A stretch of DNA of 42,052 nt from Acidisphaera sp. (lineage in GTDB: Bacteria; Pseudomonadota; Alphaproteobacteria; Acetobacterales; Acetobacteraceae). The notes beneath the pieces were generated by a model. That model was not told the origin of the DNA and did no database searches. It saw nothing but the letters and a program-made list of their open reading frames with translations. Both the position numbers and the translations under genes were made by a program. Of the stretch, positions 12,814-40,727 are shown piece by piece. The first letter of the stretch is position 1. Each line of letters opens with the position of its first letter. The stretch covers positions 1 to 42,052 of the forward strand of contig JAFAYM010000141.1 in the NCBI GenBank assembly GCA_019240395.1, written 5' to 3'.

Positions 12814-12841
12814 GCTCGGCTCCGGCGCCCCGGCTTGCAGG

Positions 12842-14449: not shown

Positions 14450-14569
14450 CAGCCCTCCGCAACGCTTCTCGCGAGGCATATCTGCGGTCGCACCACCAGT
14501 GTCCTGCCCCTGAAGTTCGCTGTCCGTCGCAGCGAGCGGAAGGGATGAGCAGGCCAGTGAAACCAAAGC

Positions 14570-14628
14570 CTAGTGTCACGATCCGAAGGGCGTCGTGAGA
14601 GCGACGCATCTCGCAATCGGGACACTAG
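14570..14628. repeat. Interrupted inverted repeat around a GT90 stop codon
   Basis: CTAGTGTC at 14570-14577 is matched by GACACTAG at 14621-14628. A second perfect hairpin, GCGTCG-TGAGAG-CGACGC, lies between them (about 14591-14608). The TAG stop of the GT90 gene (14627-14625, minus strand) is part of the right arm. The position just after that gene suits a terminator or attenuator, but there is no T tract. The rest of the 175-bp gap (14450-14624) shows only the ribosome binding site of the next gene. Confidence 0.5.
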
Positions 14629-15611: not shown

Positions 15612-16835
15612 TCACACGATGCCCTTCTCCCGCAGGCTCCGCAGCGCCGCTGTATCGAGCCCGAGCAGAGAGCCGAGCACCGCATCGGTGTGCTCGCCGA
15701 GCAGCGGCGGCGGGATGCGGTAGTCGACCGGCGTTTCGGACAGGCGGACCGGGTTGGCGATCACCCGCACCCCCTCCGGGGTCGCGGAGTGCGGCATCTC
15801 CACCACCACGCCGCGTGCCTGCACCTGCGGATCGGCGAAGACTTCGGCTAGCGTGTTGATCGGTCCGCAGCCGATCTTCAGCGCCTCCAGCCGTTCCACC
15901 CACCACCCCGTCGGATGGCGTTGCATGACCGGGGTCAGGGTCTCGGTCACCAGCTTGCGGTTGCTGACGCGCGCGGCGTTGGTGGCGTAGCGCTCGTCCT
16001 GCAGCAGATGCGCGAGATCGAAATTCTCGCAGAAGCGCTTGAAGGTCGGGTCGTTGGCGACGGACAGCACGATATAGCCGTCGGCCGTAGGGAACACCTG
16101 GTAGGGCACGATGTTGGGATGCTGGTTGCCCAGCCGTGGCGGGTTTTCGCCGGTCGCGAGATAGTTCATCCCCTGGTTGGCGAGCCAGGCGACGTGCGTG
16201 TCGAGCATGCCGATATCGACCTGCTGGCCGTGCCCGGTGGCGTCGCGATGGCGCAGGGCGGCGAGGATGCCGATGCAGCCATAGAGCCCGGCGAACAGGT
16301 CGGCGACCGGCACGCCGACCTTCTGCGGCTGGCCCTCGGGCTCGCCGGTCAGGCTCATCACGCCGCCCATCGCCTGCACCAGGCTGTCATAGCCGGGGCG
16401 CGGCGCATACGGCCCGGTCTGGCCGAAGCCGGTTATCGAGCAGTAGACGAGGCGGGGAAACTGCTCGCGCAGCTGCTCGTAGCCGAGGCCGTACTTGGCC
16501 AGCGCGCCGACCTTGAAATTCTCCGCCAGGATGTCGCAGCTTGCGATCAGCCGCCGGGCGATCTCCTGGCCCTCGGGCTTGGCGATGTCGAGGGTGACGG
16601 AGCGCTTGTTGCGGTTCACGCCGACGAAATAGGCGCTCTCTTGCGTGCCGGGCATGAAGGGCGGGGCGAAGCCGCGGGTGTCGTCGCCCGAGCCCGGCTT
16701 CTCGATCTTGATGACGTCCGCACCCAGGTCGGCCAGCATCTGCACGCAGGTTGGTCCGGCGAGCACGCGGGTCAGGTCGAAGACGCGCAGGCCTTTCAGC
16801 GGCCCGCTCGGCTCGGGGGTTGCGGTCGCGCTCAT
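15612..16835 (-). CDS. Family III (CaiB/BaiF) CoA-transferase
   Basis: A 407-residue protein typical of the formyl-CoA:oxalate, carnitine and succinyl-CoA:acid CoA-transferase family. N-terminal GLRVFDLTRVLAGPTCVQML and ADVIKIEKPGSGDDTR form the CoA-binding half. Asp179 in VGVPVADLFAG is the family's catalytic aspartate, and GFGQTGPYAPRPGYD with a C-terminal LGEHTDAVL complete the pattern. The ATG is at 16835; the frame stays open far upstream only because it is antisense to the aldehyde dehydrogenase. Divergent from that gene by 87 bp with a shared control region. CoA transfer to an acid whose aldehyde precursor is oxidised by the neighbour is an attractive but untested link. Confidence 0.92.
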   Translation of the reverse strand: MSATATPEPSGPLKGLRVFDLTRVLAGPTCVQMLADLGADVIKIEKPGSGDDTRGFAPPFMPGTQESAYFVGVNRNKRSVTLDIAKPEGQEIARRLIASCDILAENFKVGALAKYGLGYEQLREQFPRLVYCSITGFGQTGPYAPRPGYDSLVQAMGGVMSLTGEPEGQPQKVGVPVADLFAGLYGCIGILAALRHRDATGHGQQVDIGMLDTHVAWLANQGMNYLATGENPPRLGNQHPNIVPYQVFPTADGYIVLSVANDPTFKRFCENFDLAHLLQDERYATNAARVSNRKLVTETLTPVMQRHPTGWWVERLEALKIGCGPINTLAEVFADPQVQARGVVVEMPHSATPEGVRVIANPVRLSETPVDYRIPPPLLGEHTDAVLGSLLGLDTAALRSLREKGIV

Positions 16836-16922
16836 CGGTGCCTTGTCCCCTTCTTGCTCGCCGGTGCGGCAGGGTCCATCTTCGAACACGGTTATAGGTC
16901 CCTTGTTCCGGGAGGCAAACCC

Positions 16923-18434
16923 ATGCTCGACCGCCCGCATCCCACGCCGCAGGAGCCGAGCCTGGACGAGCGGGCGCTGGCCCGCGCGCTCTCCGGCCGG
17001 CACTTCATCGGCGGACGCTTCGTGCCGGCGCGCTCGGGCCGGAATTTTCCCGTGCACAACCCGGCGACCGGCGAGATGGTGGCCGAGGCCGCCGAGGGCG
17101 ACGCCGCCGATGTCGACGCCGCAGTGCAGGACGCCGCCGGGGCGCAGAAGGAATGGGCGAAGCTGCCGGCCCGCAAGCGCGGCGCCATGGTCGCGAAATG
17201 CGCCGGAGTGCTGCGCGAGCATGTGGAGGAACTCGGCCGACTGATCGCTCTGGAGACTGGCAAGGCGCTGCGCACCGAGAGCCGGGTGGAGGCCAACACG
17301 GTCGCTGACATCCTGGAGTTCTACGGCGGCCTGGGCAGCGAGCTGAAGGGCGAGAGCGTGCCGTTCGCGCCGGGCGTGCTGTCGGTGACGGTGCGCGAGC
17401 CGCTCGGCGTGGTCGGCGCGATCATCCCGTGGAACGTGCCGATGTTGCTGATGGCGCTGAAGGTGGCGCCGGCGCTGGTGGCGGGGAACACGGTGGTGGT
17501 GAAATCGGCCGAGGAGGCTCCGCTCGCCGTGCTGCGCATCTGCGAGCTGATGAACCGCGTGCTGCCGCCGGGCTGCTTCAACCTGCTCTCCGGGTTCGGG
17601 CCGGAATGCGGCGCCCCGCTCGTGACGCATCCGAAGGTCCGCAAGGTGACGTTCACCGGCAGCGTCGAGGTCGGCCGCATCGTCTCCAAGGCGGCGGCCG
17701 AGAAGATCATCCCGGTGACGCTCGAGCTCGGCGGGAAGAGCCCGATGCTGGTGTTCGCGGATTGCGACTTCGAGAAGACGGTGATGGGCGCCATCACCTC
17801 CATGCGCTTCACCCGCCAGGGGCAGAGCTGCACGGCGGCGAGCCGCATCTATGTCGAGCGGCCGATCTTCGACCGGTTCGTCGACGCGCTGGCGGCGAAG
17901 GTGGACGCCATGGTGATGGGCGACCCGCTCGACGAGAAGACCGACATCGGCACGATCATCAGCCAGGGCCAGTTCGACAAGGTGCAAGGTTTCATCGAGG
18001 AGGGACGCGCCACGGCAGGCGCACAGGCGCGGGCCTGCAGCGCCATGCCGCAGGACCCGGCGCTGAAGAAGGGCCTGTTCATCCAACCGCACATCTTCAC
18101 CGGCCTGGAGAACAGTTCACGCCTGGTGCAGGAGGAAATCTTCGGCCCGGTCACCTGCGTGTTCCCGTTCGACGACGCCGAGAGCGTGCTCGCTGCGGCA
18201 AATGACAGCGAATACGGGCTGGCGGCCTCGGTCTGGACCAACAATCTGAAGGTGGGGCTTGACCTGGCGCACCGGCTGGAGGCTGGACTGGTGCAGATCA
18301 ACCAGAACCTGGTCGTGCAGGCGAACCTGTCCTATGGCGGCGTCAAGAGCTCCGGGCTGGGCAAGGAGGCGAGCCTGGAGGCCATGCTCGAGCACTTCAT
18401 GCACAAGAAGACGATCATGGTGAATTATCAGTAG
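16923..18434 (+). CDS. NAD(P)-dependent aldehyde dehydrogenase
   Basis: A 503-residue class of the aldehyde dehydrogenase superfamily. The nucleophile is Cys303 (RQGQSCTAASR), the general base Glu268 (VTLELGGKSP), and the cofactor and oxyanion residues are Asn171 (IIPWNVP) and Lys194. FTGSVEVG forms the Rossmann glycine turn and EEIFGPV the conserved C-terminal block. The ATG at 16923 follows GGGAGG by 6 nt. It oxidises an aldehyde to an acid in the cytoplasm; the substrate is not visible. Divergent from the CoA-transferase and convergent with the beta-helix gene, whose stop is 13 bp away. Confidence 0.95.
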   Translation: MLDRPHPTPQEPSLDERALARALSGRHFIGGRFVPARSGRNFPVHNPATGEMVAEAAEGDAADVDAAVQDAAGAQKEWAKLPARKRGAMVAKCAGVLREHVEELGRLIALETGKALRTESRVEANTVADILEFYGGLGSELKGESVPFAPGVLSVTVREPLGVVGAIIPWNVPMLLMALKVAPALVAGNTVVVKSAEEAPLAVLRICELMNRVLPPGCFNLLSGFGPECGAPLVTHPKVRKVTFTGSVEVGRIVSKAAAEKIIPVTLELGGKSPMLVFADCDFEKTVMGAITSMRFTRQGQSCTAASRIYVERPIFDRFVDALAAKVDAMVMGDPLDEKTDIGTIISQGQFDKVQGFIEEGRATAGAQARACSAMPQDPALKKGLFIQPHIFTGLENSSRLVQEEIFGPVTCVFPFDDAESVLAAANDSEYGLAASVWTNNLKVGLDLAHRLEAGLVQINQNLVVQANLSYGGVKSSGLGKEASLEAMLEHFMHKKTIMVNYQ

Positions 18435-28170: not shown

Positions 28171-28956
28171 ATGCAGGTCGCAGACCTCAACCGCCGAGTC
28201 TACGAGCGCCCGGGTGTGGCGCGCTACTACGCCGCGCAGGACGGGCTGCACGCCGCCGAGGTCGCCATCCTGCAGCGCTACGCCGGCGACATACGCGGGG
28301 GCAGCGTGCTCGACCTCGGGGTCGGAGGCGGACGGACGACGCCGCATCTGGCATCGCTCGCCCGCCGCTATGTCGGGGTCGATTTCAGCGCCGCCATGGT
28401 CGCCGCCTGCGGGCGGCGCTTCTCGCAGCACGAATTCCGCCAGGCCGACGTGCGCGACCTATCGGAGTTCCCGCCGCAAAGCTTCGATTTCGTGCTGTTC
28501 TCCTTCAGCGGCATCGATGCCCTGGATGATGCCGGACGCTCGCAGGCGCTGCGCGAGATCGCCCGCATCCTCAAGCCCGGCGGCGTGCTCGCATTCAGCA
28601 GCCACAACCTCCGCCACGCCGGGCAGGCCCGCTTCTTCCGCGAGATCTTCCGCGTGCCGGTCACCGTGCATCCCGGCCGCATCCTGCGTTCGCTGTTCCG
28701 CGTCTCCGTCAGGCTCTGCAATTACTGCGCGGGGCTGCTGCACAATCGCCGGGAGGCGCGCTACGCCTTGCTGCACGACCCCGGCAGCGATTTCGCGGCG
28801 CCGCATTACTACGTGGACATTCCGGAGCAGCGCCGGCAGCTTGCGAGGGCCGGTTTCACGGGGCCGACGCAGATCTTCGACGAGAGCGGCAACGAGGTCG
28901 GTCCCCGCGGCAACGACTGCTCGGCGACGCTGCACTACGTCACGCGGAAACCCTGA
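28171..28956 (+). CDS. Class I SAM-dependent methyltransferase
   Basis: A 261-residue protein with the SAM-binding motif VLDLGVGGGRTTPHL near 49-63, VGVDFSAAMV (acidic motif II), QADVRDL, FDFVLFSFSGIDALDD and motif ILKPGGVLAFS. The C-terminal part (about 155-261) is helical with a C-terminal beta strand and may bind the acceptor. The ATG at 28171 was chosen because it lies just past the repeat; an in-frame start at 28144 would lie in repeat sequence. The final 22 bp overlap the convergent double hydrolase. The substrate is unknown. Confidence 0.85.
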   Translation: MQVADLNRRVYERPGVARYYAAQDGLHAAEVAILQRYAGDIRGGSVLDLGVGGGRTTPHLASLARRYVGVDFSAAMVAACGRRFSQHEFRQADVRDLSEFPPQSFDFVLFSFSGIDALDDAGRSQALREIARILKPGGVLAFSSHNLRHAGQARFFREIFRVPVTVHPGRILRSLFRVSVRLCNYCAGLLHNRREARYALLHDPGSDFAAPHYYVDIPEQRRQLARAGFTGPTQIFDESGNEVGPRGNDCSATLHYVTRKP

Positions 28957-30704
28957 TCGGCGACCGCCGGAGACGGCGGCGCCACCCCGTAGCGGTCGCG
29001 CAGGAACTCCAGGAACAGCGCGATGAAGCGCTGGCGCGCGGCGTGCCGGGCCAGCATGTGGTCGAGCCCCGGGACGATCGTTACCCTGACAGTGGGAAAA
29101 GCCCGGAGATCACGGCCGGAGGCGCCAAAATACTGCTCGAGTTCGTCGATGCCGGGGTCTTCCTGCCCCAGCACGACCGCAACCTGCACGCCCCGACGCG
29201 CCAGCGCGGCGAAGGCGCGTCCCGGCCGGGCGTGCCGCAGCGCCAGGCCGAGGCGCTCCGCGATCGGCAGCACCGGAGCCAGCGCCGCGCCGGCGAAGCG
29301 GCGCGTCAGGCGCCGCGCCAATGTCAGCAGAATGCCGCGAAAATTCACCTCGGCGCGGAGCAGCCGCCGCCACACGTCCCGCTGCTTCAGGCGGTCCCGG
29401 TAGAAGCGGGTGGACCGCATGGCCCGGCGCTGCGCCAGCTCGAGCGAGTCGCCGACCCGCCAGTGCAGGCGCGCCAGGTTCACCACCACCAACCCGCCGA
29501 TCCGCGACTCCGCCACCGCCGCATGCAGGGCGTGGTAGCCGCCCGAACAGATGCCGGTGACGATGAACCGCCGGTAGCCGAGCCCCTGCAGCAGGTCGAG
29601 CGCCGCGGCGATCTCCGGCCCGCGATCGGTCTCGTAGAGATGGATGCGCGCGCCGGCCTCGGCCTCGCTGTCGCCGGCGCCCGAGAAATCCATGCGCAGC
29701 GAGGCGACCCCGCGTTGCGCGATGCGGCGCGCCAGGGTGACGCCGAGCCGGCCGATGCCGTAATGCGGATCGCCGCCGGTGTTGCAGATCACCACTGCCA
29801 GATCCGTCGTGCCGTGCTTCTCGCGATCGGCCGGCGGCTCGCAGAGCATGCCGAACAACCGCCGATCCTCGCCGAAACGGAACGGCCGCTCGATGGCGCC
29901 GGGCGGATGCAGCACGGCGAGGCTCGCCAGCAGCGCCGCCGACGGGGCGCGCGCCACGCGCCCGAGCGGCACCACGCCGACCAGCCATTCCGTCACCCTG
30001 CGGTAGGCGAGTTCCGGCACCTCATTGGCATTCGCGTCGCAGAGGAAGCGGTCATAGCCGGGGAAATCCTCGCGCCGAACCGCGACCCCCAGGCTGCCCA
30101 GGCGCGTCGCGTAGTCGGCGACCGCGGTCGTGCCGACAGGGTCCAGGATCAGCACGTGCGGCGCCGGCGCGGTCCGCACCTCGCGCAGGTCGATGCGCGC
30201 GATCCTGTCCAGCGTGGCAAGCGGCAGCCGCAGGCCGGCGGCTTCGTGCCAGCCCGGCTCCTGCGACGCTTCGTCCATACGGGCGACGGCGGTGAGCTCG
30301 CGCCGATGGACGCGGCCCGAGATCACCGGCGCCAGCAGCGCGAGCGCGGCGACGTCGGGGATTTCCGCCGCGGCCAGCGCGGCGAGCGCCGCGCCGAAAC
30401 GCAGACCGCACAGGGCGAGCCGCTGGACCCCTGTCGTGCTGCGCAGCCAGCCGGCGGCGTCGCGCACGCTTTGCAGCCATGTCTCGACCTGGGCGGCGTC
30501 ATCGCCGCCGCAGGCATCGGCGCTGCCGGGATAGTCGAAGCGCATCGTCGGAAAACCCGCTGCCGCCAGCCGGTCGGCGAGCAGCCGCCAGGGCCGGTGC
30601 ACGGATCGGCCCTCGTAGCCCAGCGCGCCGCACAGCAGCACCGCGCAATCCCCCTCCGCCGGATGCAGCCAGCCGAAGCAGTCGCTGAAGGAAATCGGGA
30701 TCAC
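28935..30704 (-). CDS. Double alpha/beta hydrolase, first domain lacking nucleophile
   Basis: A 589-residue protein made of two alpha/beta hydrolase domains. In domain 1 (about 1-250) the nucleophile elbow reads GLRFG with Arg102 in place of Ser, as in the exosortase-A-associated hydrolases. Domain 2 (about 270-589) has GICSGG with Ser387 as nucleophile, MDFSGAGDS near 338, and a late histidine in PGLDHMLARH. Domain 2 is likely an esterase or thioesterase, and domain 1 may bind substrate or partner. GTG start overlapping the GH2 stop by 4 bp (GTGA). Last gene of the carrier-protein operon, so release of an acyl or aminoacyl group from the carrier is a reasonable guess. No signal peptide. Confidence 0.8.
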   Translation of the reverse strand: MIPISFSDCFGWLHPAEGDCAVLLCGALGYEGRSVHRPWRLLADRLAAAGFPTMRFDYPGSADACGGDDAAQVETWLQSVRDAAGWLRSTTGVQRLALCGLRFGAALAALAAAEIPDVAALALLAPVISGRVHRRELTAVARMDEASQEPGWHEAAGLRLPLATLDRIARIDLREVRTAPAPHVLILDPVGTTAVADYATRLGSLGVAVRREDFPGYDRFLCDANANEVPELAYRRVTEWLVGVVPLGRVARAPSAALLASLAVLHPPGAIERPFRFGEDRRLFGMLCEPPADREKHGTTDLAVVICNTGGDPHYGIGRLGVTLARRIAQRGVASLRMDFSGAGDSEAEAGARIHLYETDRGPEIAAALDLLQGLGYRRFIVTGICSGGYHALHAAVAESRIGGLVVVNLARLHWRVGDSLELAQRRAMRSTRFYRDRLKQRDVWRRLLRAEVNFRGILLTLARRLTRRFAGAALAPVLPIAERLGLALRHARPGRAFAALARRGVQVAVVLGQEDPGIDELEQYFGASGRDLRAFPTVRVTIVPGLDHMLARHAARQRFIALFLEFLRDRYGVAPPSPAVADQGFRVT

Positions 30705-33163
30705 GGCCGCCCCTGGTAGTGCACGGGACGTGCAAGATTGGTCGCCCGCACGCTGCCGGCCGGCGGCGGCGGCGCCGAATCCGACTCAGCCGGAACCAGG
30801 CGAACACGGCGGTCATGCAGCGGGGAGAGATGGAAGCCATCCTCCGCGGGCAGGAAGAAATCGTCGCGGATCTGCACGTGCTGGGCGAAGCGGCGCGCTG
30901 CGAGCCGCAGCCACCAGCCCGCGTCATCCTGCTCGACGTCGACCCGCAGATCGAGCGCACCGGTCGGCAGCAGTCGCGTGCGGGGGAAGTGACAGGCCTC
31001 AGCAATCACCTCCGACTTGGCGTCGAGCAGGTGCACGCAGGTCACGTCATGCGCCGGAGGGCCGAAGCGGTAGGCGTAGGCGATGTCGAAGAAGCGGTCG
31101 AGCAGCGACGCCGCGGCAAGGCGCAGCGTGCCGTGCGGCGGAACGCAGACCTGGCGTTCCGCCCGCGCCACCACCGTCTCGCCGCCGCGCAGGCAGGACA
31201 GCCGCAGCTCCGCCTCGAGCGGTTCCGCGCTCTCGTTCAGCACGTGGATGTCCAGGCCGTTCAGGCCCTCGTCGGTGAGCACCACCTGGCGCAGCCGGAA
31301 AACCCGGCGCAGCGCATGCCAGGTCGATTTCGGTCGCCCCAGCGCATCGATCACGCCCCAGCCGGCGCCCGGCACGAAATCCTGCAGCGTCCAGACCAGG
31401 CCGCCGGCGCAGGCCGAGCCGACGCGCCGCCACTCCGCGAATACCGCCTCCATCAGATCGGCGGCGACGGCGCGGGAGAGATCGAGATAGCGCTCGGGAT
31501 CTTCGTAGCGCAGGCGCGCCACGTCCTGGCCGTACAGGCTGGCGAGATAGTGGTCGCGCACATCCTCGAAGTCCCAGGACGCGCCGGCATCGCGCGGCAC
31601 CGCCTGCTTCCACCGGGGATGATGGCTGAAGGGCGAGGCCATCTCGGCGACTGTTCGTGCGCAGGGCACGTTGGCGAAGGCCAGGCACTCGCTGGCGAAC
31701 CGCACCCCGGCGCGCCGCGCGTCTTCTGGCGGGCGCAGATAGGCGCCGACGCCGTAATAATGCGCCACCCCCTGCCCCGGCTGGAACGGCCAGTCACCGC
31801 CGCAAGGCGAGTTCGGCACGTAGGGCACGTCCGGGCGCAGGCGCTGCACGAGGTCGGGCAGCGTTTCGTCGAACAGGCGGTTGCTCCAGCGTTCCCGTGG
31901 CGCGCCGAGCATCGCCGCCTGCTGCATCACCTCGCTGCCGCCGCAGAGCACGGCGAGGCTCGGGCTGGCCTGGGTCCGGTCGAGAAACTGCCTCGCCTCG
32001 AGGCCGACGGAATCCAGGAAATCCGGGTCGCCTGCGGGGTAGTCGAAATTGGCGAACATGAAATCCTGCCAGACCAGCAGGCCAAGCTCGTCGCACAGCG
32101 TATAGAACGCGTCGTCCTCGTAGAGCATCGTGCCGGACACCCGCACCATGTTCATGCCGGCATCGCGCATGCGCAGCAGCGACGGGAGATAGCTCTCGCG
32201 ATGGCCGGACAGGGACAGCAGGTCAGGCGGGGTCCAGCAGGCGCCGCGGCAGAAGATCTTTTCGCCGTTCACCCTGAGGCCAAAACCGGCACCGTCAGCG
32301 CCGCGATCGATCTCGATATGGCGGAAGCCGATGCGGCCGAGATCGATCTCGTGCCGGCCGATGCCGGCCCGGGCGGAATGCAGGCACGGCGCGCCATGCG
32401 TGCGCGGCCACCAGCGCGCGGCCTGCGGCACACGCAGCCTGCCCTCGACGGTGTTCGGGTCGCTCGCGTGCAGCCAGGTCCGGCGCGCACCCACCTGCAG
32501 CCATGATTCGCCCGATCCGCAAAAGCCGTTTTCTGCAGTCAGCCGCAGCGTCACCTCGCCGTCAGCGGACGTGCGAAGATCGGCGGTGACCCCGTCGAGC
32601 TCGGTCGCCGGCGACAGCGTGACCGCCCGCCACGGCCCGATTGCGTGGATCTCCGGGCACCAGCCCGGCATCATGCCGAGCAGCGTGGTGCGGGCGTGGC
32701 GCAGGCCGGCGCCGGCGATCATGCGCGGACGCCAGGCGCCGCGGCCACGCCGCCCCGCGAGATCGGCATCCAGGCTGCGGAACGCCAGCACCAGCGAATG
32801 GCTGCGGTTCAGCCGCACCGGGAGCTGGTGCTCGTGGAACATGTTGCGCGAACGGAACAGGAGCGCCCCGTCGATCCAGGCTTCGGCGATGGTGGCCAGG
32901 CCGCCCAGCCGCAGCACATGCGGCCCGTTTCCCCTCAGGCGCGTGCGGTAGAAGATGTCCTGATCGTGCAGCCTCCGCGGCGCCGCCGGGTCGAACGCTC
33001 CGGCCGCGGTCAGAGCGGCCGCAGCGGTGCCCGGGACGGCGGCGGGAAACCAGCGCACATCGTCGGGGAGATCGTCAGGCCCGGCAAACGCGCCCGCCGG
33101 CGTGCAGCAAAGCTCCCAGGCAAGCGCCGGGTCCGCTCCCTGCGGCCGGACGATGCGGGCCAT
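30701..33163 (-). CDS. Glycoside hydrolase family 2, beta-mannosidase-like
   Basis: An 820-residue GH2-type protein: an N-terminal jelly-roll sugar-binding domain (about 40-185), an immunoglobulin-like domain (about 190-285), a TIM barrel (about 300-640) and a C-terminal beta domain. Glu411 in LCGGSEVMQQ aligns with the acid/base and Glu492 in VRFASECLAF with the nucleophile, so both catalytic acids are present. No signal peptide, so it acts in the cytoplasm, unusual for scavenging mannosidases. The ATG is at 33163, 4 nt after the DUF1839 stop. Its setting between an aminoacyl-carrier ligase set and a hydrolase suggests cleavage of, or transfer to, an internal glycoconjugate. Confidence 0.85.
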   Translation of the reverse strand: MARIVRPQGADPALAWELCCTPAGAFAGPDDLPDDVRWFPAAVPGTAAAALTAAGAFDPAAPRRLHDQDIFYRTRLRGNGPHVLRLGGLATIAEAWIDGALLFRSRNMFHEHQLPVRLNRSHSLVLAFRSLDADLAGRRGRGAWRPRMIAGAGLRHARTTLLGMMPGWCPEIHAIGPWRAVTLSPATELDGVTADLRTSADGEVTLRLTAENGFCGSGESWLQVGARRTWLHASDPNTVEGRLRVPQAARWWPRTHGAPCLHSARAGIGRHEIDLGRIGFRHIEIDRGADGAGFGLRVNGEKIFCRGACWTPPDLLSLSGHRESYLPSLLRMRDAGMNMVRVSGTMLYEDDAFYTLCDELGLLVWQDFMFANFDYPAGDPDFLDSVGLEARQFLDRTQASPSLAVLCGGSEVMQQAAMLGAPRERWSNRLFDETLPDLVQRLRPDVPYVPNSPCGGDWPFQPGQGVAHYYGVGAYLRPPEDARRAGVRFASECLAFANVPCARTVAEMASPFSHHPRWKQAVPRDAGASWDFEDVRDHYLASLYGQDVARLRYEDPERYLDLSRAVAADLMEAVFAEWRRVGSACAGGLVWTLQDFVPGAGWGVIDALGRPKSTWHALRRVFRLRQVVLTDEGLNGLDIHVLNESAEPLEAELRLSCLRGGETVVARAERQVCVPPHGTLRLAAASLLDRFFDIAYAYRFGPPAHDVTCVHLLDAKSEVIAEACHFPRTRLLPTGALDLRVDVEQDDAGWWLRLAARRFAQHVQIRDDFFLPAEDGFHLSPLHDRRVRLVPAESDSAPPPPAGSVRATNLARPVHYQGRP

Positions 33164-33167
33164 CGGC

Positions 33168-34151
33168 TCAGCCCAGGCGCGCAGTCAGCGCGTGCATCAC
33201 CGCGTCATAGGCACGCTCAAGCGCATCGAAGCTGTCGCCGCACTCCGCGTGCCGCTGCCGGCTGACCAACCGCGCCGTGCGGAACTGCAGCGCCTTGGCG
33301 GCCTGCGCGAGATCGGTGCACCCGGCCCGCAGCGCATCGAGGCCGAACGCCCCCTCCCCCTCCAGCCAGTCGGCGTAGCTGCCGAGCAGCTCGAAATTGC
33401 TGCCGATCTGGCGGAAGGTGTTGAAGGCGTAGCGATGGAAGTCGCCCATCCCGGCCGACAGCAGCCGGTCGAGCTGCGCCGCGAATGCGTCGCGAAATGC
33501 GGTGAGCGGATTGCTCGCCGGCCGGCGCCGCAGATGCTGGCGCAGGAGGGTGAGCGAGGCTTCCGCCAGGCCCTCCGGGTCCAGCGCCACGAGCGGGCGC
33601 TTCACCATCTCCGCATAGGGCAGCAGCGGCAACCCGTTCTCGCGCGGCATGCGGAACAGCGAGAAAAAGTCGCTGCCGTCCAGATCGTAGCAGCCGGCAT
33701 TGTGGAGATAGCGGCAGCGGCCGTCCTCGCTGTCCAGCGCCAGCACGCCGATCGTCGTCTTGGTGTGCTCGCTGCGATAGCTGGTGGAACGCGTGTCCGG
33801 AAGGAAGAAGCTGTCGACCTCGAGCAGCACCACGCGGCCGCGCGCGGCCTGCAGCGCAACGTGCCGCTCCAGTTCGTCGTAGAGCGCCAGTTCCTGCACG
33901 ACGGTGCCGTAGAGATATTCGAGATCGGCGCTGGGCGGCTTGAAGAAGGTGAACTGGTCACCCTCGAAGTCCAGCGTCACGGTGAACGGCAGGGCCGCCT
34001 CGGGCTGCAAGCCCCAGACATTCAGCAACTCGATCCACAGATCGACGTAGCAGTTGCTCTGCGGCCAGATGCGGTCCGCCGCGTGCAGGGCATGGGGCCG
34101 GTGCACCGGCCCTGCCGAGAGGGGGGTAGCGGCGGCTAGGCTGACGGCCAA
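33168..34151 (-). CDS. DUF1839 family protein
   Basis: A DUF1839 protein of about 327 residues (TTG start at 34151, overlapping the ligase gene by 16 bp) or 312 residues (GTG at 34106). Homologues begin about 15-19 residues before the [20 protein letters not shown] block, which favours the TTG; neither start has a good ribosome binding site. Other conserved parts are [38 protein letters not shown] and [14 protein letters not shown] followed by HTKTTIGV. The function of the family is unknown. The acidic and His-rich strand HTKTTI and VDSFFLPDT could form a metal or nucleotide site. The tight position after the aminoacyl-carrier ligase suggests it acts on the loaded carrier, for example by aminoacyl transfer. 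Confidence 0.85.
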
Positions 34152-35050
34152 AGCACGCTCTGCACCGGGGAAGGCCAATGTGCGGGCTCGAAGCCGTGAT
34201 GGCGGAACAGCGCGAGCGCCGTGCGTTCCAGGCCGAAGCCGACACAGGCGGTGTGCGCCGTCGCGCCGTCGCGCCCCGCCAGCTTCCAGATCTGGCCGAA
34301 ATGGTCCATGTGGTAGTTGAAGCTCAGGCAGGCCGTCGGCTGCGCCGTGCTGTTGACCGGAATCAGCAGCTCGAATTTCAGCTTCTGCACGCGCTGGCTG
34401 TCGGCCAGCACCCGGCCGGCCCGGCCGAAGAACGGATCGTTGGCCACATCGACGATGTGCGGCAGGGCCAGCGTGCGCACCAGCGCCTCGCCGCGTTCCA
34501 GCCAGAGCGCACGGAACCCGGTCACCTGCTCGGGCGTGCCGATGCGCACGTATTCGCGCATGCGGAACATCTGCATCCGCGTCGGCTCGAGAGACGGCTC
34601 GTGACGGAAGCAATAGGACTGCACGTCGATCAGGTAACCGGCCTCGGGCAGCGCACCGCGTCGCGCCAGCACGGGATAGACGGGGTAGCAGGCTGCCGGC
34701 GTCAGCACGATATCGGTCGCGGCCTGGTCGCGTGTCCAGTCCTCGCCGACCTCGATGCAGCGCAGCACTTCGCGGTGCGCGCGCTCGTCGCCACAGAAGC
34801 TGTGCACGGTCCCCGCGAGCTGCGGAAAGCTCTTGAGATATTCGCTGTCCTCGAAGTCGCGCCGGCTCAGGCCGGGCGGAAAGCGCAGCACCTCCGCGCC
34901 GTCGCCCCCGCCGGTACGGGTCACCAGCGCGTCGATGGCCTCCACCACGCGCTCGAATATCTGGCTGCGGCCGTACAGCCCGGCCACGCCGGTCGGCAGC
35001 AGCAACCCGCCGGCGATCAGCTGCTCGAGATAGGAGGGAGTCGCATCCAT
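34136..35050 (-). CDS. Amino acid:[carrier protein] ligase, class II aaRS-like
   Basis: A 304-residue protein homologous to the catalytic core of atypical seryl-tRNA synthetase but with no tRNA-binding domain. As in the Bradyrhizobium enzymes, members activate a small amino acid (Gly or Ala) with ATP and load it on the phosphopantetheine of a carrier protein. Motif 2 is FRHEPS near 148-153 with [10 protein letters not shown], and motif 3 is [12 protein letters not shown] at 271-282. Cys121, Glu166 and Cys269 match the zinc ligands I recall for the Bradyrhizobium enzyme (Cys131, Glu176, Cys279), all with a constant offset of -10. The ATG at 35050 is 2 nt after the dehydrogenase stop. The carrier is almost surely the ACP at 36272. 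Confidence 0.92.
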
Positions 35051-35052
35051 GC

Positions 35053-36270
35053 CTAGAGAAGCCCGAGCCGCGGCTTGCTCGCCAGCAGCAGGCGCGCGGT
35101 GGTCTCGCGGATGCGATCGTTGTTGATCATCAGCGGCGCCGAGTTGAGATCGCGCAGGTGGCGGGAAAGGCTGTACGGGCCTTCGTTCTGATAGCCGGCA
35201 AAGCCGCAGATCAGCAGCGCCTGATGCACCACCTGCAGGCAGGCCTCCGAGACGCCGGCCTTCAGCGTGTTCATGTCGGCGGCCTCGCCCACCGGGATCG
35301 GTTCGGCGGCGCAGGCGCGCGCCGCCTCGAAGCGCCGCAGCCCGACAGTGACCCGCGCCTGCAGCATCTCCAGCAGCTCGACGGCCATGCTCAGGCGCAG
35401 CGCTCCTGGCGGCAGCGCGCCCTCGCTGCGCCGCACGGCGGCGCGCAGGAACAGCCGGGCGCGATCGACGGCGTCGGCGGCAATGCCGATCCAGACGCTC
35501 GCCCACAGAAGATGCGACACCGGCACCATGGTGTCCGAGGCAATCTGGCCGAAGGGCGCCGGCAGGATCTGCTCGGCCTTCCCGGCGGCGACGACGCGCA
35601 GGGCGCTGCTGCACGTGCCGCGCATGCCCAGCGCGTTCCAGGTCCCGGTGCGCTCCAGCTCGCAGTCCTCGCGCGGCGAAACCACCAGCACCTGGTCCGA
35701 CGGCTTGGCGTAGGCTCCGCTGCGCGCGGTGATCAGCAGCGCGTCGGCGTGCTCGCCGTAGGAGACGGCGCTCCCGCGCTTCTCCAGCGTGTAGCCGCCC
35801 GCCCCGCGTTGCCCGGCCCCGTGACTCCCGGTACCAAGCTGCACGGCGCAGGCGCTGCTGCGCATGTTGCCGCCGACGCCCTCCTCGGACGTCACCGAGG
35901 CCAGCAGCAGGCGCTGTGCTGCGATGCGGCGCAGGAAATTGCAGTGCCACGTGCTGCCGGTGCCGTGGCGGACGAGGCACGCCACCTGGATCTGGTGCAT
36001 GGCATAGATCATGGCGGTAGAGGCGCAGGCCTGCGCCAGCGTGCAGCACGCCTCGGCGACCGCCGAGAGCGTCTCGCCAAGCCCGCCGAAGGCCACGGGC
36101 ACCAGCGCGCCGAGCAATCCCTCCGTCTTCAGCGCGGCGATTGCGGCGGCCGGAAAGGCGCCATCCCGGTCGACCTGATCCGCATGGCGCTTGGCGACCG
36201 CCGCGACCCGGGCGGCCGCATCCTCGATCGACCAGGCTTGGCCTGCGAGCTCGAGGGCCGATGCCGTCAT
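35053..36270 (-). CDS. Acyl-CoA dehydrogenase-like flavoprotein
   Basis: A 405-residue acyl-CoA dehydrogenase-fold protein: a helical N-terminal domain (1-125), a beta domain ([19 protein letters not shown], then [21 protein letters not shown]) and a helical C-terminal domain ending [21 protein letters not shown]. In the C-terminal segment the usual YEGT-type glutamate appears replaced ([12 protein letters not shown]), although the base may be elsewhere. Related enzymes oxidise carrier-bound prolyl or acyl groups in antibiotic pathways, so FAD-dependent oxidation of an aminoacyl-carrier is proposed. The ATG at 36270 is 1 nt after the ACP stop. No signal peptide. Confidence 0.85.
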
Positions 36271-36271
36271 G

Positions 36272-36517
36272 TCAGACGGACTCGGACTGCAGTTGCCGGA
36301 TGATGCGCTCGAGCGAAGCGATGCTGGAAAAGGACTGGCGCGAGAGCAGCGAGTCCGGAAACTCGACCTGGAAGGTTTCCTCGATGGCCAGCATGATGTT
36401 CACGATGGCCAGCGAATCCAGCCCGGCCGCGTAGAGATCGGCATCATCCGCCAGCGTGGCAGCGGGAACATCGAGGCGCCCATGCCTGTCCAGGGTCGCC
36501 CGCAGATCGACTTCCAT
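36272..36517 (-). CDS. Acyl/aminoacyl carrier protein
   Basis: An 81-residue acidic, helical carrier protein. Ser35 in the motif LDSLAIVNIML is the site for the 4'-phosphopantetheine arm. The body has the usual four-helix spacing (DADLYAAG before the serine, then IEETFQVEFPDSLLSRQSFSS). GGAG lies just before the ATG at 36517. It is the first gene of the six-gene operon, followed at 1 nt by the dehydrogenase. It resembles carriers partnered with amino acid:[carrier protein] ligases rather than fatty acid ACP, which usually carries a DSLD motif. Its loading partner is presumed to be the ligase at 34136. Confidence 0.9.
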   Translation of the reverse strand: MEVDLRATLDRHGRLDVPAATLADDADLYAAGLDSLAIVNIMLAIEETFQVEFPDSLLSRQSFSSIASLERIIRQLQSESV

Positions 36518-36630: not shown

Positions 36631-37722
36631 CTACTCCGGAGAGGGGTGCAGCTCCAGCTTCTGCACCCGCCAGTTCAGCAGCTCCGCCACGTAGAGCTCG
36701 TTCTCCGAGGGGCAGGCGATCTCGTGGATCCAGCCGAACTGCTTGAGCGGCTTGCCGGCGCGGCCGAGCATGCCGAGCACCTTGCCGTCGAGGCTCAGCT
36801 TATAGATGCGGCCAGGATAGGCGTCGGACGCGTACATCACCTGGTGCGGCCCAGGAGTGATGCAGATCGCCCAGGGCGCGCCCGCCACCATCGTCTTCGG
36901 CGTGCCGAAGGGCGGCGCCTGGTCCGGCTTGTTGCCGATCGCCGGCTTGGCGTTCGGGTCGAACGGCACGTCGATGCTGATCTGGCGAAGGAATTTGCCT
37001 GATGTGTCGAACACCTGGATGCGGCGATTGCCGCGGTCGGCGACGTAGATGTCGTTCTGCGCGTCGATCGCGATGCTGTGCGGCGTGTTGAACTGGCCGG
37101 GCTGATCGCCCGGCGAGCCCCAGGAGCCCAGCCACTCGCCGTCGCGGCTCACCTTGGCGACGCGCGCGTTGATGTAGCCGTCGCTGATGTAGCCGTTGCC
37201 GTCGGTGTCCCAGGTGATGTCCGTCACCTGGCGGAACATGCCGTCGATCGGCGGCAGCGGCGGCTTGGGGTGCTTCAGCGGCCCGGTGTCTTCGTCCGAC
37301 GCCTCCTGCTTGCGGCCGAACACCATGACGACGCGGCCGTCGGGATCGAACTTGATCACCATGTCCGAGCCCTTGTCGGTGGCCCAGATGTTGTCGTCGC
37401 GGTCGATCTTCACGGTGTGCGCGAACGACCAGGCATAGAGGTTGTGGCCGATCTCGCGCAGGAATGTGCCGTCGGCGCCGAATTCCAGCAGCTGCGCCGC
37501 CGAGGCCGCATACGCCGGCCCAATGGTGTTGCCGCGGGAGAAGACGAAGACGTGGCCCTTGGAGTTGACCGCCACACCGGACGCCTCGCCGAGATAGAGG
37601 TTCGGCGGCAGCTTCAGCGGGTTTGGCACGGAGTCGAACGGAATCTCCGGCACCGGCTGCGCCAGCGCCCCGGCGCTGAGCAGGACGCCGGTCAGCAGCG
37701 CTGCGGCAAGGCTGCGGATCAT
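36631..37722 (-). CDS. Exported NHL-repeat beta-propeller protein
   Basis: A 363-residue protein with a Sec signal peptide (MIRSLAAALLTGVLLSAGALA, cleavage near 21) and several NHL repeats. Examples are GVAVNSKGHVFVFSR near 50, VKIDRDDNIWATDKGSDMVI near 103, DITWDTDGNGYISDGYINAR near 165 and IAIDAQNDIYVADRGNRRIQ near 216. It resembles the beta-propeller lyase domain of peptidylglycine alpha-amidating enzymes, though a full metal site cannot be confirmed. Probably periplasmic or extracellular; the binding partner is unknown. The ATG is at 37722; the divergent gap to the next gene is 84 bp. Confidence 0.88.
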   Translation of the reverse strand: MIRSLAAALLTGVLLSAGALAQPVPEIPFDSVPNPLKLPPNLYLGEASGVAVNSKGHVFVFSRGNTIGPAYAASAAQLLEFGADGTFLREIGHNLYAWSFAHTVKIDRDDNIWATDKGSDMVIKFDPDGRVVMVFGRKQEASDEDTGPLKHPKPPLPPIDGMFRQVTDITWDTDGNGYISDGYINARVAKVSRDGEWLGSWGSPGDQPGQFNTPHSIAIDAQNDIYVADRGNRRIQVFDTSGKFLRQISIDVPFDPNAKPAIGNKPDQAPPFGTPKTMVAGAPWAICITPGPHQVMYASDAYPGRIYKLSLDGKVLGMLGRAGKPLKQFGWIHEIACPSENELYVAELLNWRVQKLELHPSPE

Positions 37723-38252: not shown

Positions 38253-38258
38253 TCTAGA
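38253..38258. repeat. IS481 target site duplication, left
   Basis: TCTAGA beside the left end of the element matches the copy at 39299-39304. It fits the NCTAGN target known for the Bordetella IS481. It provides the TAG stop of the transposase (38256-38254). Confidence 0.85.
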
Positions 38259-39213
38259 TGTCGCTACCAAGGACGTTGTCCCTGGTGAGCCTGAAGATTG
38301 GTGGTTTTCCACCGAGTGCTGCGTGTGGCCGAGAGGTATTGTAGTTGTGCAGCCAGGGATGCATGGCGGCCTGTCTGTCTGCGGAGGTTTGGAAGGCACG
38401 CGCATAGGCCCATTCGCGGATGCTGCTTTGGATGAAACGCTCGGCCTTGCCGTTGGTCCTGGGCGTGTAGGGCCGGGTGCGCTTGTGGGTGACGTTGTTG
38501 GCTTTCAAGGCAGCCGCGAAGACCTTGCTTTTGTAGGCCGAGCCGTTGTCGGTCATGACGCGCTCGACGACGACGCCATGGCTGTTGAACCAGGCAAGGC
38601 TGCTGTTGAGGAAGGCGGTGGCGTCTTGCTTGCGTTCGCTGGGCAGCAGTTGCGTGTAGGCCAGACGCGAGCGGTCATCGACGGCGACGTGCAGGTATTC
38701 CCAGCCCAGGCCGCGTCCGATGGCGCGTCGGTTGCTTTGGCCGGTGCGGTCGCCGGTGATGCGATGGCCGATCCCATCGATGCGGCCGAGCTTCTTGATG
38801 TCGATGTGAACCAGCTCGCCCGGTCGTTCGCGCTCGTAGCGGATGAGAGGCGGCCGGGGGTCGAGAGCAGTTAGCCGCCCAAGGCCGCGCCGACGGAGCA
38901 CGACGCCGATGGTGGACAGCGGCCGGGCCAAGCTTCGGGCGATCGCCGGGCCGCTCATGCGGTCCCGGCGCAGTGCCTCGATTTCCGCCTCTGCCTGTCC
39001 ATCGAGCCGGCTCGGGCTGCGATGCGGCCGCGACGAATGATCCGCCAGGCCGCCGGCCCCGGTCGCGGCGAAGCGGTTGCGCCACTTGCGGACGGTTTTG
39101 GGGGTGACGCCGAGCGCCTCGGCGACGCTGACCACCGTCCAGCCCACTTGCAGCCGCTCAATCATCAGCATTCGACTATGGCAGGTGGTTCGCGCATTCT
39201 TATGGACGTCCAT
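38254..39213 (-). CDS. IS481-family DDE transposase
   Basis: A 319-residue transposase: an N-terminal helix-turn-helix (VSVAEALGVTPKTVRKWRNRF, about residues 26-46), then an RNase H-like core with catalytic acids in HIDIKKLGRI, DDRSRLAYT and VMTDNGSAYKS and the glutamate in TNGKAERFIQS. The ATG at 39213 (MDVHKNAR) is preferred to an upstream in-frame start because it fits family N-termini and has GGAG upstream. The frame is intact and full-length, so the enzyme may be active. Its TAG comes from the target duplication. Confidence 0.93.
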   Translation of the reverse strand: MDVHKNARTTCHSRMLMIERLQVGWTVVSVAEALGVTPKTVRKWRNRFAATGAGGLADHSSRPHRSPSRLDGQAEAEIEALRRDRMSGPAIARSLARPLSTIGVVLRRRGLGRLTALDPRPPLIRYERERPGELVHIDIKKLGRIDGIGHRITGDRTGQSNRRAIGRGLGWEYLHVAVDDRSRLAYTQLLPSERKQDATAFLNSSLAWFNSHGVVVERVMTDNGSAYKSKVFAAALKANNVTHKRTRPYTPRTNGKAERFIQSSIREWAYARAFQTSADRQAAMHPWLHNYNTSRPHAALGGKPPIFRLTRDNVLGSDI

Positions 39214-39298
39214 CCGGGGCTCCGGGCTGTGGGTTGTTGGCCTCGCAACCACAGCTTCTCAGCCCAGCCCCGGAGGGACAACCTCCATAGCAGCGACA
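38259..39298 (-). mobile_element. Complete IS481-family insertion sequence, 1040 bp
   Basis: Imperfect terminal inverted repeats TGTCGCTACCAAGGACGTTG (left) and, inverted, TGTCGCTGCTATGGAGGTTG (right) flank one transposase gene. A 6-bp TCTAGA duplication lies on both sides. The element is inserted in the stop codon of the sugar transferase gene at 39300. All parts needed for mobility appear intact, suggesting a recent insertion. Confidence 0.92.
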
Positions 39299-39304
39299 TC
39301 TAGA
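39299..39304. repeat. IS481 target site duplication, right
   Basis: TCTAGA, a duplicate of 38253-38258. Its CTA (39300-39302) is the TAG stop of the sugar transferase gene on the minus strand, so that gene's reading frame survives the insertion. Confidence 0.85.
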
Positions 39305-40727
39305 AAGCATGCGGACTGATCACCTCCCGCACCAATGTCAGGAGCAGAATCCGGCAATCCAGCGCCAGCGACCAGTGCTCGACATAGTGGAGATCAAGCT
39401 CCACCCGCTTGCGGATCTGCTCGGCGGTGCGGATCTCGCCGCGATGACCGTTCACCTGCGCCCAGCCGGTGATGCCCGGCTTGACCCGATGGCGCAGCGC
39501 ATAGCGCGACACCACCGCCTCGAGCGGCTGCTGGTCCGCGCGCGTGTTGAGCGCATGCGGCCGCGGGCCGACCAGCGACATGTCCCCGCGCAGCACGTTC
39601 AGCAGCTGCGGCAGCTCGTCCAGCCCGTGCCGGCGCAGCCGCCGCCCCAAGGGCGTCACGCGCGGATCGCCGCGCGAGGTCTGCCGATCGGCCAGTAGAT
39701 CGGCGCAGTGATGATACATGGTGCGGAACTTGAGCACCTCGAACGGGTGATTGTTGAAGCCGAGCCGCTTCTGACGGAACAGCACCGGACCAGGGCTGTC
39801 GAGCCGGATGGCCAGCGCGATCGCCAGCAGCAAGGGCGACAGCAGCAGCAGAAACAGGGAAGCGAGCAGGCGATCGAAAACCGCCTTCTGCAGATGCTGC
39901 CATTCCCCGAGCGGCTTGCGGCGAAGCGTCACGACCGGCTCACTGCCGGCTGCGCCGAAATCCAGGACGAACAGATCGGGAGCGAGAACGATGTCGGCGA
40001 TCGCGCTGTCAAGCCGATCCAGCGTCTCGCGGATGCGGTCGGTCTCGGCCAGCGGCAGAGCCAGCACGATGTCGTCGATCCGCTCCCGACGGCTGCGGGC
40101 CAGCAGATCGTCCAGCGTGCCGGCGACCCGCAGGCCGGGATGTCCGCGATCGTCGAATACGCCGAGGATATTCACCGGAGCGGACGGCCTCGCCTGCATC
40201 CGCTCGATGAAGGCGCCGGCAACCGCTGTCGCGCCGACCACCGCGATCCGGCGGGCAAGCAGTTCGTCGAGCATCCGGGTGCGCAGCAGGCCGGCAAGGA
40301 CGCACCGCAGCGCCAGCACCAGGCCAGCGCCGCCGAAAGTCCAGCCGAGCAGCCAGGCATCGAGCTTGCCTCCCCGGTCCAGCAACAGCAGACAGGCGGC
40401 CACCATCCCACCGCCGAGCAGCAGCGCGGGTCCGATGAGGGCCAGCTGGACGGAGGCCGAACGCAGCGCGCTGATCCGATAGCTGCCGCTCCCAGCCAGC
40501 CGGAGCAGGACTACGGCACTCCCGGTCAGGCAGGCTACTGCGTGCTCGCCGCTCGGCCAGAAGCGGCCGGAGGTCGCGGCCTGCGCGACAACGCATGCCA
40601 GCAACAGCAAGCCGAGATCCGCTGCCCAGACCAGGTCGACCAGCATCGAGGCGGGCAGGCCGGCCGGATCGGATCCGGCCGGGATGCGCGGCAATGTCGG
40701 CGCTTGCGAGTGGAACGCAACGCTCAC
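39300..40727 (-). CDS. Undecaprenyl-phosphate sugar phosphotransferase (WcaJ/ExoY-like)
   Basis: A 475-residue inner-membrane protein that starts exopolysaccharide repeat units by moving a sugar-1-phosphate onto undecaprenyl phosphate. The N-terminal half has four or so membrane helices (about 25-150), then a CoA-binding-like domain (IAVVGATAVAGAFIERMQ). The C-terminal catalytic domain has a membrane helix (LLASLFLLLLSPLLLAIALA), FRQKRLGFNNHPFEVLKFRTM, LDELPQLLNVLRGDMSLVGP and HRVKPGITGWAQVNGHRGEI. GTG start at 40727 with AGGTGGA about 8 nt upstream. The stop lies in the IS481 target duplication. The sugar is unknown, often glucose or galactose. Confidence 0.92.
   Translation of the reverse strand: MSVAFHSQAPTLPRIPAGSDPAGLPASMLVDLVWAADLGLLLLACVVAQAATSGRFWPSGEHAVACLTGSAVVLLRLAGSGSYRISALRSASVQLALIGPALLLGGGMVAACLLLLDRGGKLDAWLLGWTFGGAGLVLALRCVLAGLLRTRMLDELLARRIAVVGATAVAGAFIERMQARPSAPVNILGVFDDRGHPGLRVAGTLDDLLARSRRERIDDIVLALPLAETDRIRETLDRLDSAIADIVLAPDLFVLDFGAAGSEPVVTLRRKPLGEWQHLQKAVFDRLLASLFLLLLSPLLLAIALAIRLDSPGPVLFRQKRLGFNNHPFEVLKFRTMYHHCADLLADRQTSRGDPRVTPLGRRLRRHGLDELPQLLNVLRGDMSLVGPRPHALNTRADQQPLEAVVSRYALRHRVKPGITGWAQVNGHRGEIRTAEQIRKRVELDLHYVEHWSLALDCRILLLTLVREVISPHAF

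Follow-up and report, generated by a model that had tools for sequence, protein, structure and literature searches.

Ligases that load an amino acid onto a small carrier protein were reportedly first described in 2010. In a note in proof to their 2010 paper, Iyer and Aravind pointed to a gene neighbourhood of such a ligase (example Atu2574) and predicted that its uncharacterized open reading frame (ORF) joins an amino acid to the amino group of a cell-surface sugar; they also predicted a monooxygenation by the redox enzyme (PMC2922099). Where a 2022 review deals with carrier-loading ligases, it gives no downstream product for them (PMC9437257), and in its treatment of the bec biofilm genes of Burkholderia another 2022 review calls for the characterization of their hypothetical proteins (PMC9899790). 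Here we describe the same neighbourhood, as a six-gene operon, in a 42,052-nucleotide (nt) stretch of DNA from Acidisphaera sp. (Acetobacteraceae, Alphaproteobacteria; assembly GCA_019240395.1, contig JAFAYM010000141.1, positions 1 to 42,052), which we refer to as the window. With Bll0957 and the neighbourhood of Iyer and Aravind it has in common the ligase family and its presumed zinc ligands, together with the carrier, redox enzyme, uncharacterized ORF and glycosidase as partners. The published note differs in that it has no structure for the uncharacterized ORF, no double hydrolase and no link to the Bep/Bec biofilm polysaccharides of Burkholderia (PMC2922099).

We propose that the six genes form one co-inherited pathway that joins an amino-acid-derived group to a cell-surface sugar, and we put the probability of this reading at roughly 0.58. 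Aminoacyl transfer to a surface sugar is not new, having been predicted by Iyer and Aravind. An initial annotation of the window called the purpose of the ligase's product unresolved; transfer to a sugar had by then been published as an idea (PMC2922099, note in proof). What is added here is a CcbD-like fold for the uncharacterized protein (DUF1839), a natural experiment of cysteine loss in Cupriavidus and Ralstonia, the double hydrolase as a constant partner, and the placement of the genes in the Bep/Bec regions with their mutant phenotypes. The six genes are as follows:

36272..36517, minus strand: carrier protein, PRK07081-like, 81 amino acids; PF00550 42.4 bits; PRK07081 99.4 bits (cut-off 72); phosphopantetheine serine S35
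35053..36270, minus strand: flavoenzyme of acyl-CoA dehydrogenase fold, 405 amino acids; PF02771 46.7 bits and PF00441 23.6 bits, both above cut-off
34136..35050, minus strand: amino acid:[carrier protein] ligase, 304 amino acids; PRK07080 501.9 bits (cut-off 357)
33168..34151, minus strand: DUF1839 protein, 327 amino acids, with an uncertain TTG start; PF08893 409.6 bits (cut-off 22.5)
30701..33163, minus strand: beta-mannosidase-like protein of glycoside hydrolase family 2 (GH2), 820 amino acids; PF22666 (GH2 N2 domain) 37.3 bits (cut-off 27)
28935..30704, minus strand: double alpha/beta-hydrolase, 589 amino acids; TIGR03101 75.1 bits and TIGR03100 106.3 bits, both below cut-offs

All six ORFs are open at these positions and run co-directionally on the minus strand (36517-28935), with junctions of 1, 2, -16, 4 and -4 nt from carrier to hydrolase. 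The 16-nt overlap of ligase and DUF1839 depends on the choice of start, the DUF1839 start being TTG. A purine-rich GGAGCGGGGC stretch precedes the ATG of the carrier gene. The coordinates, open frames and family names given in the initial annotation are all borne out by the ORF check and by profile searches.

The gene order is conserved well beyond the window. The six proteins were searched against 80 loci, the best 80 of 212 ligase relatives from named genomes, and matches were extended to start and stop codons, with starts chosen by script; the sample leans toward Burkholderia and many flanks are short. Carrier, flavoenzyme, ligase, DUF1839 and GH2 genes follow one another in this order on one strand in 68/80 loci, a tally that includes loci whose last gene runs off the contig (e.g., L013). 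A contig end interrupts 10 of the remaining 12 (L014, L017, L033, L037, L044, L047, L067, L070, L071 and L080), and the true departures from the five-gene order are two, L004, which is taken up below, and L075, where carrier and ligase stand together and DUF1839 and the hydrolase lie elsewhere in the same genome. The complete six-gene order of the window, with the hydrolase directly after GH2, is found in 23/80 loci. The double hydrolase lies directly after GH2 in 26/80 and anywhere in the flank examined in 33/80; it was also found in all 12 genomes checked for it (11 that have no copy in the flank, plus that of L004). Junctions fall within -20 to +50 nt in 70/75 carrier-flavoenzyme, 72/78 flavoenzyme-ligase, 74/77 ligase-DUF1839 and 60/72 DUF1839-GH2 pairs, and in 26/26 of the hydrolase genes that stand behind GH2. 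The loci span Alpha- and Betaproteobacteria, among them many bacteria that live in soil or on plants.

With DUF1839 as the query, the protein is present in 16 of 398 genomes of the phylum, and its gene adjoins that of a ligase in all 16; two additional copies (L119, L120) each come from a genome in which another copy adjoins the ligase. The double hydrolase is present in 16/16 of these genomes, that of the window included. Among 289 genomes of the class, a sample that overlaps with that of the phylum, the ligase is found above its cut-off in 7, the hydrolase in 5 (E up to 1e-30, with at most four candidates scored per genome, among the matches listed) and DUF1839 in 4, as nested sets; at E 0.001 and with no cut-off the ligase model has matches in 13/289. 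This nested co-occurrence of ligase, hydrolase and DUF1839 corresponds to P = 1.3e-9, 1.2e-7 and 1.8e-8, with genomes treated as independent and three draws taken as one genome set. Within the window's own family DUF1839 is found in 1 of 100 genomes, namely that of the window, a sporadic distribution which matches the expectation for a transferable module. No constant neighbour gene emerged from the flanks at 12 loci of alphaproteobacteria or Curvibacter (the ORFs in these lists, chosen by codon-position G+C, are approximate). The six genes are a real, widespread and co-inherited pathway module. That they might be found together only in this genome, which the initial annotation had named as a refutation of its reading, is ruled out by the 68/80 loci and the 16/16 adjacency, the grouping recurring across both classes.

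The DUF1839 protein is predicted to resemble a known family of transferases. Its predicted structure, based on 26 aligned homologues, has a mean predicted local distance difference test score (pLDDT) of 89.8. A Foldseek search with this model returns 19 matches at E < 0.001, all of which are CcbD, CtaG or AziU3/U2. VIA-align matches the model to CcbD with a Z of 19.7 over 284/327 residues (root-mean-square deviation 3.6), followed by AziU3/U2 (18.9) and CtaG (18.4), and the next, unrelated chain reaches 7.5. The fold matches span the whole chain, with Z of 16.7 to 19.7 over 14 entries and identities of 10 to 16%; searched against PDB sequences, the profile of DUF1839 gave no match. CcbD is described as taking carrier-bound proline onto a catalytic cysteine and then onto the amino group of a sugar in the synthesis of celesticetin (PMC12945683). 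The lincosamide condensing enzymes CcbD and LmbD have in common with DUF1839 the fold of the whole chain, a cysteine that starts the first helix and a dedicated carrier in the operon. They differ from it in that low identity and in the reported order of the triad, which a 2023 survey gives as Cys-Thr/Ser-His for DUF1839 in classing it as papain-like, with glycan processing as its guess at a function (PMC10318531). Judging from the model, DUF1839 is likely a transferase with a CcbD-like papain fold and with C34 as its candidate nucleophile.

In the model, helix 34-45 begins with C34, which is kept in 63/74 DUF1839 proteins; H129 and H150 are each invariant (74/74). Atu2574 is presumably a DUF1839 protein as well. 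The 11 proteins that lack C34 belong without exception to Cupriavidus or Ralstonia and have R or Q in its place in the cassette copy. Of these 11 loci, 10 also hold another DUF1839 gene, on the opposite strand and with the cysteine (10/10; e.g., L016:15704-16651), as would be expected if the cysteine is needed; at L041 the sequence breaks off before a second copy could show. No second copy was found in the examined flank of any other of the 80 loci. These DUF1839 pairs may each consist of an active and an inactive member, as AziU2 and AziU3 were solved as a complex. Where the initial annotation saw a protein of unknown function, the predicted CcbD fold marks a likely transferase, and its proposal that an amino acid is transferred, possibly to a glycan, is supported.

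Family scores and conserved order agree, as far as sequence comparison goes, with the initial annotation of a ligase and its own carrier in one gene run. The phosphopantetheine serine S35 of the carrier is kept in 75/75 aligned proteins. In the ligase C121, E166 and C269, whose columns were located through the alignment with 4h2w, are kept in 81/81, and we take them to be the zinc-binding Cys/Glu/Cys of the family. Its relatives among solved structures are those of Bradyrhizobium Bll0957, 3mey/4h2w. For the studied ligase relatives, glycine, alanine or serine is tabled (PMC9437257). The window's genome has a second ligase copy (L084:1416-8584, G000:C175), 68% identical to the first. It is followed by HAD hydrolase, glycosyltransferase, glycosidase-like and PIG-L deacetylase genes, with DUF1839 absent, and no carrier gene was found in the 740 nt between it and the contig end. 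Its surroundings again have to do with glycans, which we count in favour of the proposed pathway.

The flavoenzyme is not an ordinary acyl-CoA dehydrogenase. In the printed profile alignment the catalytic-Glu column of the dehydrogenases is occupied by an isoleucine, I382, in 76/76, and the alternative catalytic-base column, 252, by Ser in 71, Thr in 2, Cys in 2 and Ala in 1, with no carboxylate; we take these two columns to be the catalytic Glu positions of MCAD or IVD. H253 had been considered as a catalytic base at the IVD glutamate site and was rejected when the profile alignment placed S252 in that column. Among solved chains, a single-sequence search ranks 3m9v, 4kcf and the nitrososynthase 3mxl as the top three, followed by a short-chain dehydrogenase (SCAD). 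In the profile search 7p98, an acyl-CoA dehydrogenase, and DnmZ (4zxv) lead, followed by 3m9v/4kcf and then 3mxl; four of the top five are thus 3m9v, 4kcf, 3mxl and DnmZ, with dehydrogenase chains scoring about equally and the prolyl-ACP (acyl carrier protein) dehydrogenase 4irn far down the list. We take 3m9v/4kcf to be KijD3 and DnmZ to be a flavin N-oxygenase. 7p98 itself has Thr in place of the Glu in the printed alignment. The protein is probably an N-oxygenase or an atypical dehydrogenase, and oxygenation seems the likelier of the two. It resembles the flavin N-oxygenases (3m9v/4kcf, 3mxl, 4zxv) in that 3m9v, 4kcf and 3mxl are its nearest chains by single sequence and in being a flavoenzyme that lacks the catalytic Glu; it differs from them in that the six-gene set has no flavin reductase gene and that dehydrogenases are about equally close by profile. 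Of the redox enzyme said in the initial annotation to oxidize the amino acid, the acyl-CoA dehydrogenase fold stands, whereas the absence of the dehydrogenase base may mean N-oxygenation.

The GH2 enzyme keeps both of its catalytic glutamates, E411 and E492, in 70/70, and the residue before E411 is Ser in 68/70 and Asn in 2/70. Its nearest solved chains are beta-mannosidases. No N-terminal signal peptide was seen by eye, and the enzyme is apparently cytosolic. The double hydrolase looks like exosortase-A-associated hydrolases 2 and 1 (TIGR03101, TIGR03100) joined in one chain, from which it differs in falling under both curated cut-offs (75.1 against 202.75 bits for TIGR03101; 106.3 against 168.45 for TIGR03100); membership in either family was rejected on these scores. 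A fold search with its model (pLDDT 85.4) has ordinary esterases and lipases in the top 50. Both positions of the serine nucleophile are replaced, by Arg in the GxRxG of domain 1 (R102 in 33/34) and by Cys in the GxCxG of domain 2 (C386 in 34/34, with H549 in 34/34), and R102 and C386 both sit at strand-to-helix elbows in the model. The two hydrolase domains agree with the release-type hydrolase of the initial annotation, but with Arg and Cys at the nucleophile elbows transfer would be as likely as release. The GxRxG/GxCxG pair also occurs at 2 of the 7 loci searched for it, in adjacent frames at L136 and as a fusion at L141, and a pattern search found no GxCxG in the hydrolase frame of the remaining 5. 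The L141 fusion is a double hydrolase of 620 amino acids, in a genome that was found by the exosortase hydrolase 1 model just below its cut-off.

The pathway that we propose, with its substrates, order of steps and acceptor, would start with the ligase, which would activate a small amino acid with ATP and load it onto the carrier. The flavoenzyme would then modify the loaded aminoacyl group, most likely by oxygenation of the amine and less likely by dehydrogenation. DUF1839 would move the group from the carrier to its cysteine and from there, in the manner of CcbD, to a sugar or a lipid-linked sugar, where an amino or a hydroxyl group would accept it. With a cysteine as the one nucleophile left to it, the double hydrolase might move, proofread or unload acyl groups, and the apparently cytosolic GH2 enzyme might trim or recycle a glycoside. 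A sugar is the likely acceptor. In Burkholderia the acceptor pathway would be that of the Bep/Bec biofilm polysaccharide, which is controlled by cyclic di-GMP (c-di-GMP).

This last assignment comes from the places in which the genes are found. At the Burkholderia cenocepacia locus L043, the five core genes are enclosed by two regulator genes, one CRP-type and one VpsR/sigma-54-type, with ManC and WcaJ-type genes near. The double hydrolase gene follows about 16 kb on along the same contig, amid glycosyltransferase, acyltransferase and Wzc genes; by gene order it equates to BCAM1334, which is tabled as a TIGR03100 hydrolase (PMC3584217). The CRP-type and VpsR/sigma-54-type genes are known in the literature as BerA (BCAM1349) and BerB (BCAM1342), regulators that depend on c-di-GMP and act on the Bep polysaccharide genes BCAM1330-1341 (PMC5552954, PMC9684580). 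Among the 80 loci a WcaJ-type gene is present at 44, a BerA-like gene at 43, ManC at 33 and BerB at 28, all of them betaproteobacterial according to the titles of their records. In the becA-R cluster of Burkholderia pseudomallei, as it is laid out in PMC5507470, the interval from becE (CRP) to becL (sigma-54) leaves six places, and becG, in the second of them, is an acyl-CoA dehydrogenase gene. Loci L024 and L025 carry the six operon genes between the becE- and becL-type positions. Going by position, becF-becK correspond to these six genes, an equation based on gene order and the synteny of L024/L025 and not on B. pseudomallei sequence. A becG insertion is reported to lower biofilm to 0.84, against 1.25 for the wild type, and the transposon pellicle screen of the 18 bec genes is reported to have left only becF, becM and becO with no hit, becM and becO being absent from the library (PMC5507470). 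Within the presumed cassette the screen thus hit five genes out of six and missed only becF, the presumed carrier gene. In their accounts of these clusters the Bep/Bec papers name a dehydrogenase, a glycoside hydrolase, a TIGR03100 hydrolase and hypothetical proteins and propose no aminoacyl step, and a literature search of partial coverage found no publication that ties a carrier ligase to Bep/Bec. The six-gene set thus lies inside Bep/Bec clusters (BCAM1330-1341; becA-R) at Burkholderia loci; the window differs in having a WcaJ-type gene and, by Pfam profile search, scattered glycosyltransferase genes elsewhere, but no BerA, BerB, ManC or Wzc match.

Several observations weigh against the pathway as we propose it. 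The L004 locus, also from Acidisphaera, has carrier, flavoenzyme, ligase and hydrolase genes and neither DUF1839 nor GH2, and DUF1839 was not found in its 2.4-Mb draft genome. Among the class genomes, two (G180, G250) have the ligase with neither hydrolase nor DUF1839, one (G241) has ligase and hydrolase and no DUF1839, and an internal stop interrupts the hydrolase match of G389, one of the five. An hhalign comparison of DUF1839 with BtrH, which the 2023 survey likewise describes as papain-like and acting on a small sugar (PMC10318531), gives a probability of 1% (9 BtrH_N proteins, 2 of them seemingly started too far upstream), so that any kinship of the two would be one of fold; a weak local match aligns H129, and a control alignment of DUF1839 with the hydrolase is not significant. 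The biofilm data are mixed as well. The library contained becF, which by its position would be the carrier gene, and the biofilm-deficient mutants did not include it. Of the seven bec mutants tabled becG has the mildest defect; the follow-up used first genes of operons, and the mutants may be subject to polar effects (PMC5507470). The Bep repeat is given as Gal, Glc, Gal and Man, with no amino sugar and hence no place for an amide (PMC7084887). According to the same paper, 0.3 M NaOH was used to extract the material, which was then read in NaOD; an ester-bound group would be lost under such treatment and an amide should survive it, which is an excuse for the missing substituent and not evidence of one. 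At the alphaproteobacterial, Curvibacter and Mycetohabitans loci the flanks examined, 10 kb long at most, contain no match to WcaJ, BerA or ManC, and glycosyltransferase-2 accounts for only 5 of the 84 flanking ORFs of the 12 alphaproteobacterial or Curvibacter loci. In the window itself tblastn found no match to BerA, BerB, ManC or Wzc at E 1e-4, and the Poly_export genes of its 303-contig draft genome are on other contigs.

Since the Bep repeat lacks an amino sugar and the alphaproteobacterial loci show no polysaccharide cluster in the flanks examined, the main rival is a small soluble aminoacyl-sugar conjugate, such as a cofactor, a thiol-like molecule or a signal (cf. mycothiol and the lincosamides), whose link to biofilm would run through the molecule itself or through shared regulation. 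It would agree with CcbD and BtrH acting on small sugars, as they are described in the sources cited above, and an apparently cytosolic GH2 enzyme would suit a soluble glycoside. We nevertheless regard it as unlikely, given that the betaproteobacterial sets often lie inside polysaccharide clusters, by the WcaJ-type, BerA-like and ManC counts, and that the hydrolase is related to exosortase-associated hydrolases.

The version closest to the initial annotation, in which a true dehydrogenase acts on the carrier-bound group, the hydrolase frees a small acid and DUF1839 plays an unrelated role, appears improbable to us. The acyl-CoA dehydrogenase fold and 7p98 as the top profile match, itself likewise lacking the Glu, speak for it; the two base columns devoid of carboxylate, the replacement of both hydrolase serines and the DUF1839 fold, which would indicate transfer, speak against it. 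Least probable is a supply of aminoacyl-carrier to a non-ribosomal peptide, a role that has been proposed for carrier ligases and is quoted as such in PMC2922099. The constant partners of the ligase are a glycosidase and DUF1839, and the 84 flanking ORFs of the 12 loci include 2 with AMP-binding domains and no condensation domain among the 25 of 109 families listed.

Joining the aminoacyl transfer to a surface sugar, our preferred reading, with the Burkholderia data leads to a more specific idea, which we offer as a speculation with the odds clearly against it. Bep/Bec polysaccharides, and the surface sugars of many plant- and soil-associated proteobacteria, may bear an N-oxygenated or otherwise oxidized amino-acid substituent that is installed by the ligase, which derives from a tRNA synthetase, and a CcbD-like transferase and stripped by the alkaline extraction used for the Bep structure. 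Glycans would then be aminoacylated by way of a carrier protein, a route distinct from the Dlt system. If the Burkholderia assignment is right, an aminoacyl step would be added to a c-di-GMP-controlled biofilm polymer, and it would be explained why base-extracted material might hide the substituent. Bringing the carrier ligases together with the hypothetical bec proteins gives both a concrete, testable role.

Upstream of the operon the window has three further genes that bear on its setting:

36631..37722, minus strand: NHL beta-propeller protein; PF01436, with ScyF-like below cut-off; 113 nt upstream of the carrier gene
38254-39252, minus strand: IS481-type transposase, between the WcaJ-type gene and the operon
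39300..40727, minus strand: WcaJ-type undecaprenyl-phosphate sugar transferase; PF02397; TIGR03025 380.3 bits (cut-off 295.55)

The WcaJ-type enzyme is 40% identical over 382 amino acids to the enzyme of the B. cenocepacia Bep region, and its gene is split from the operon by the transposase and NHL genes. The IS481-type transposase may have parted the operon and a polysaccharide cluster from each other. Neither an Rfam nor a tRNA scan of the window gave a match. Elsewhere in the window, two GT90 (Glyco_transf_90) genes flank an ORF of 574 amino acids that has no Pfam match (11818-15560, minus strand). An ORF of 839 amino acids (15915-18434, plus strand) is an aldehyde dehydrogenase from residue 370 on, residues 1-369 having no Pfam match, and an inward-rectifier potassium channel (Kir-type) gene lies at 6778-7725 on the plus strand.

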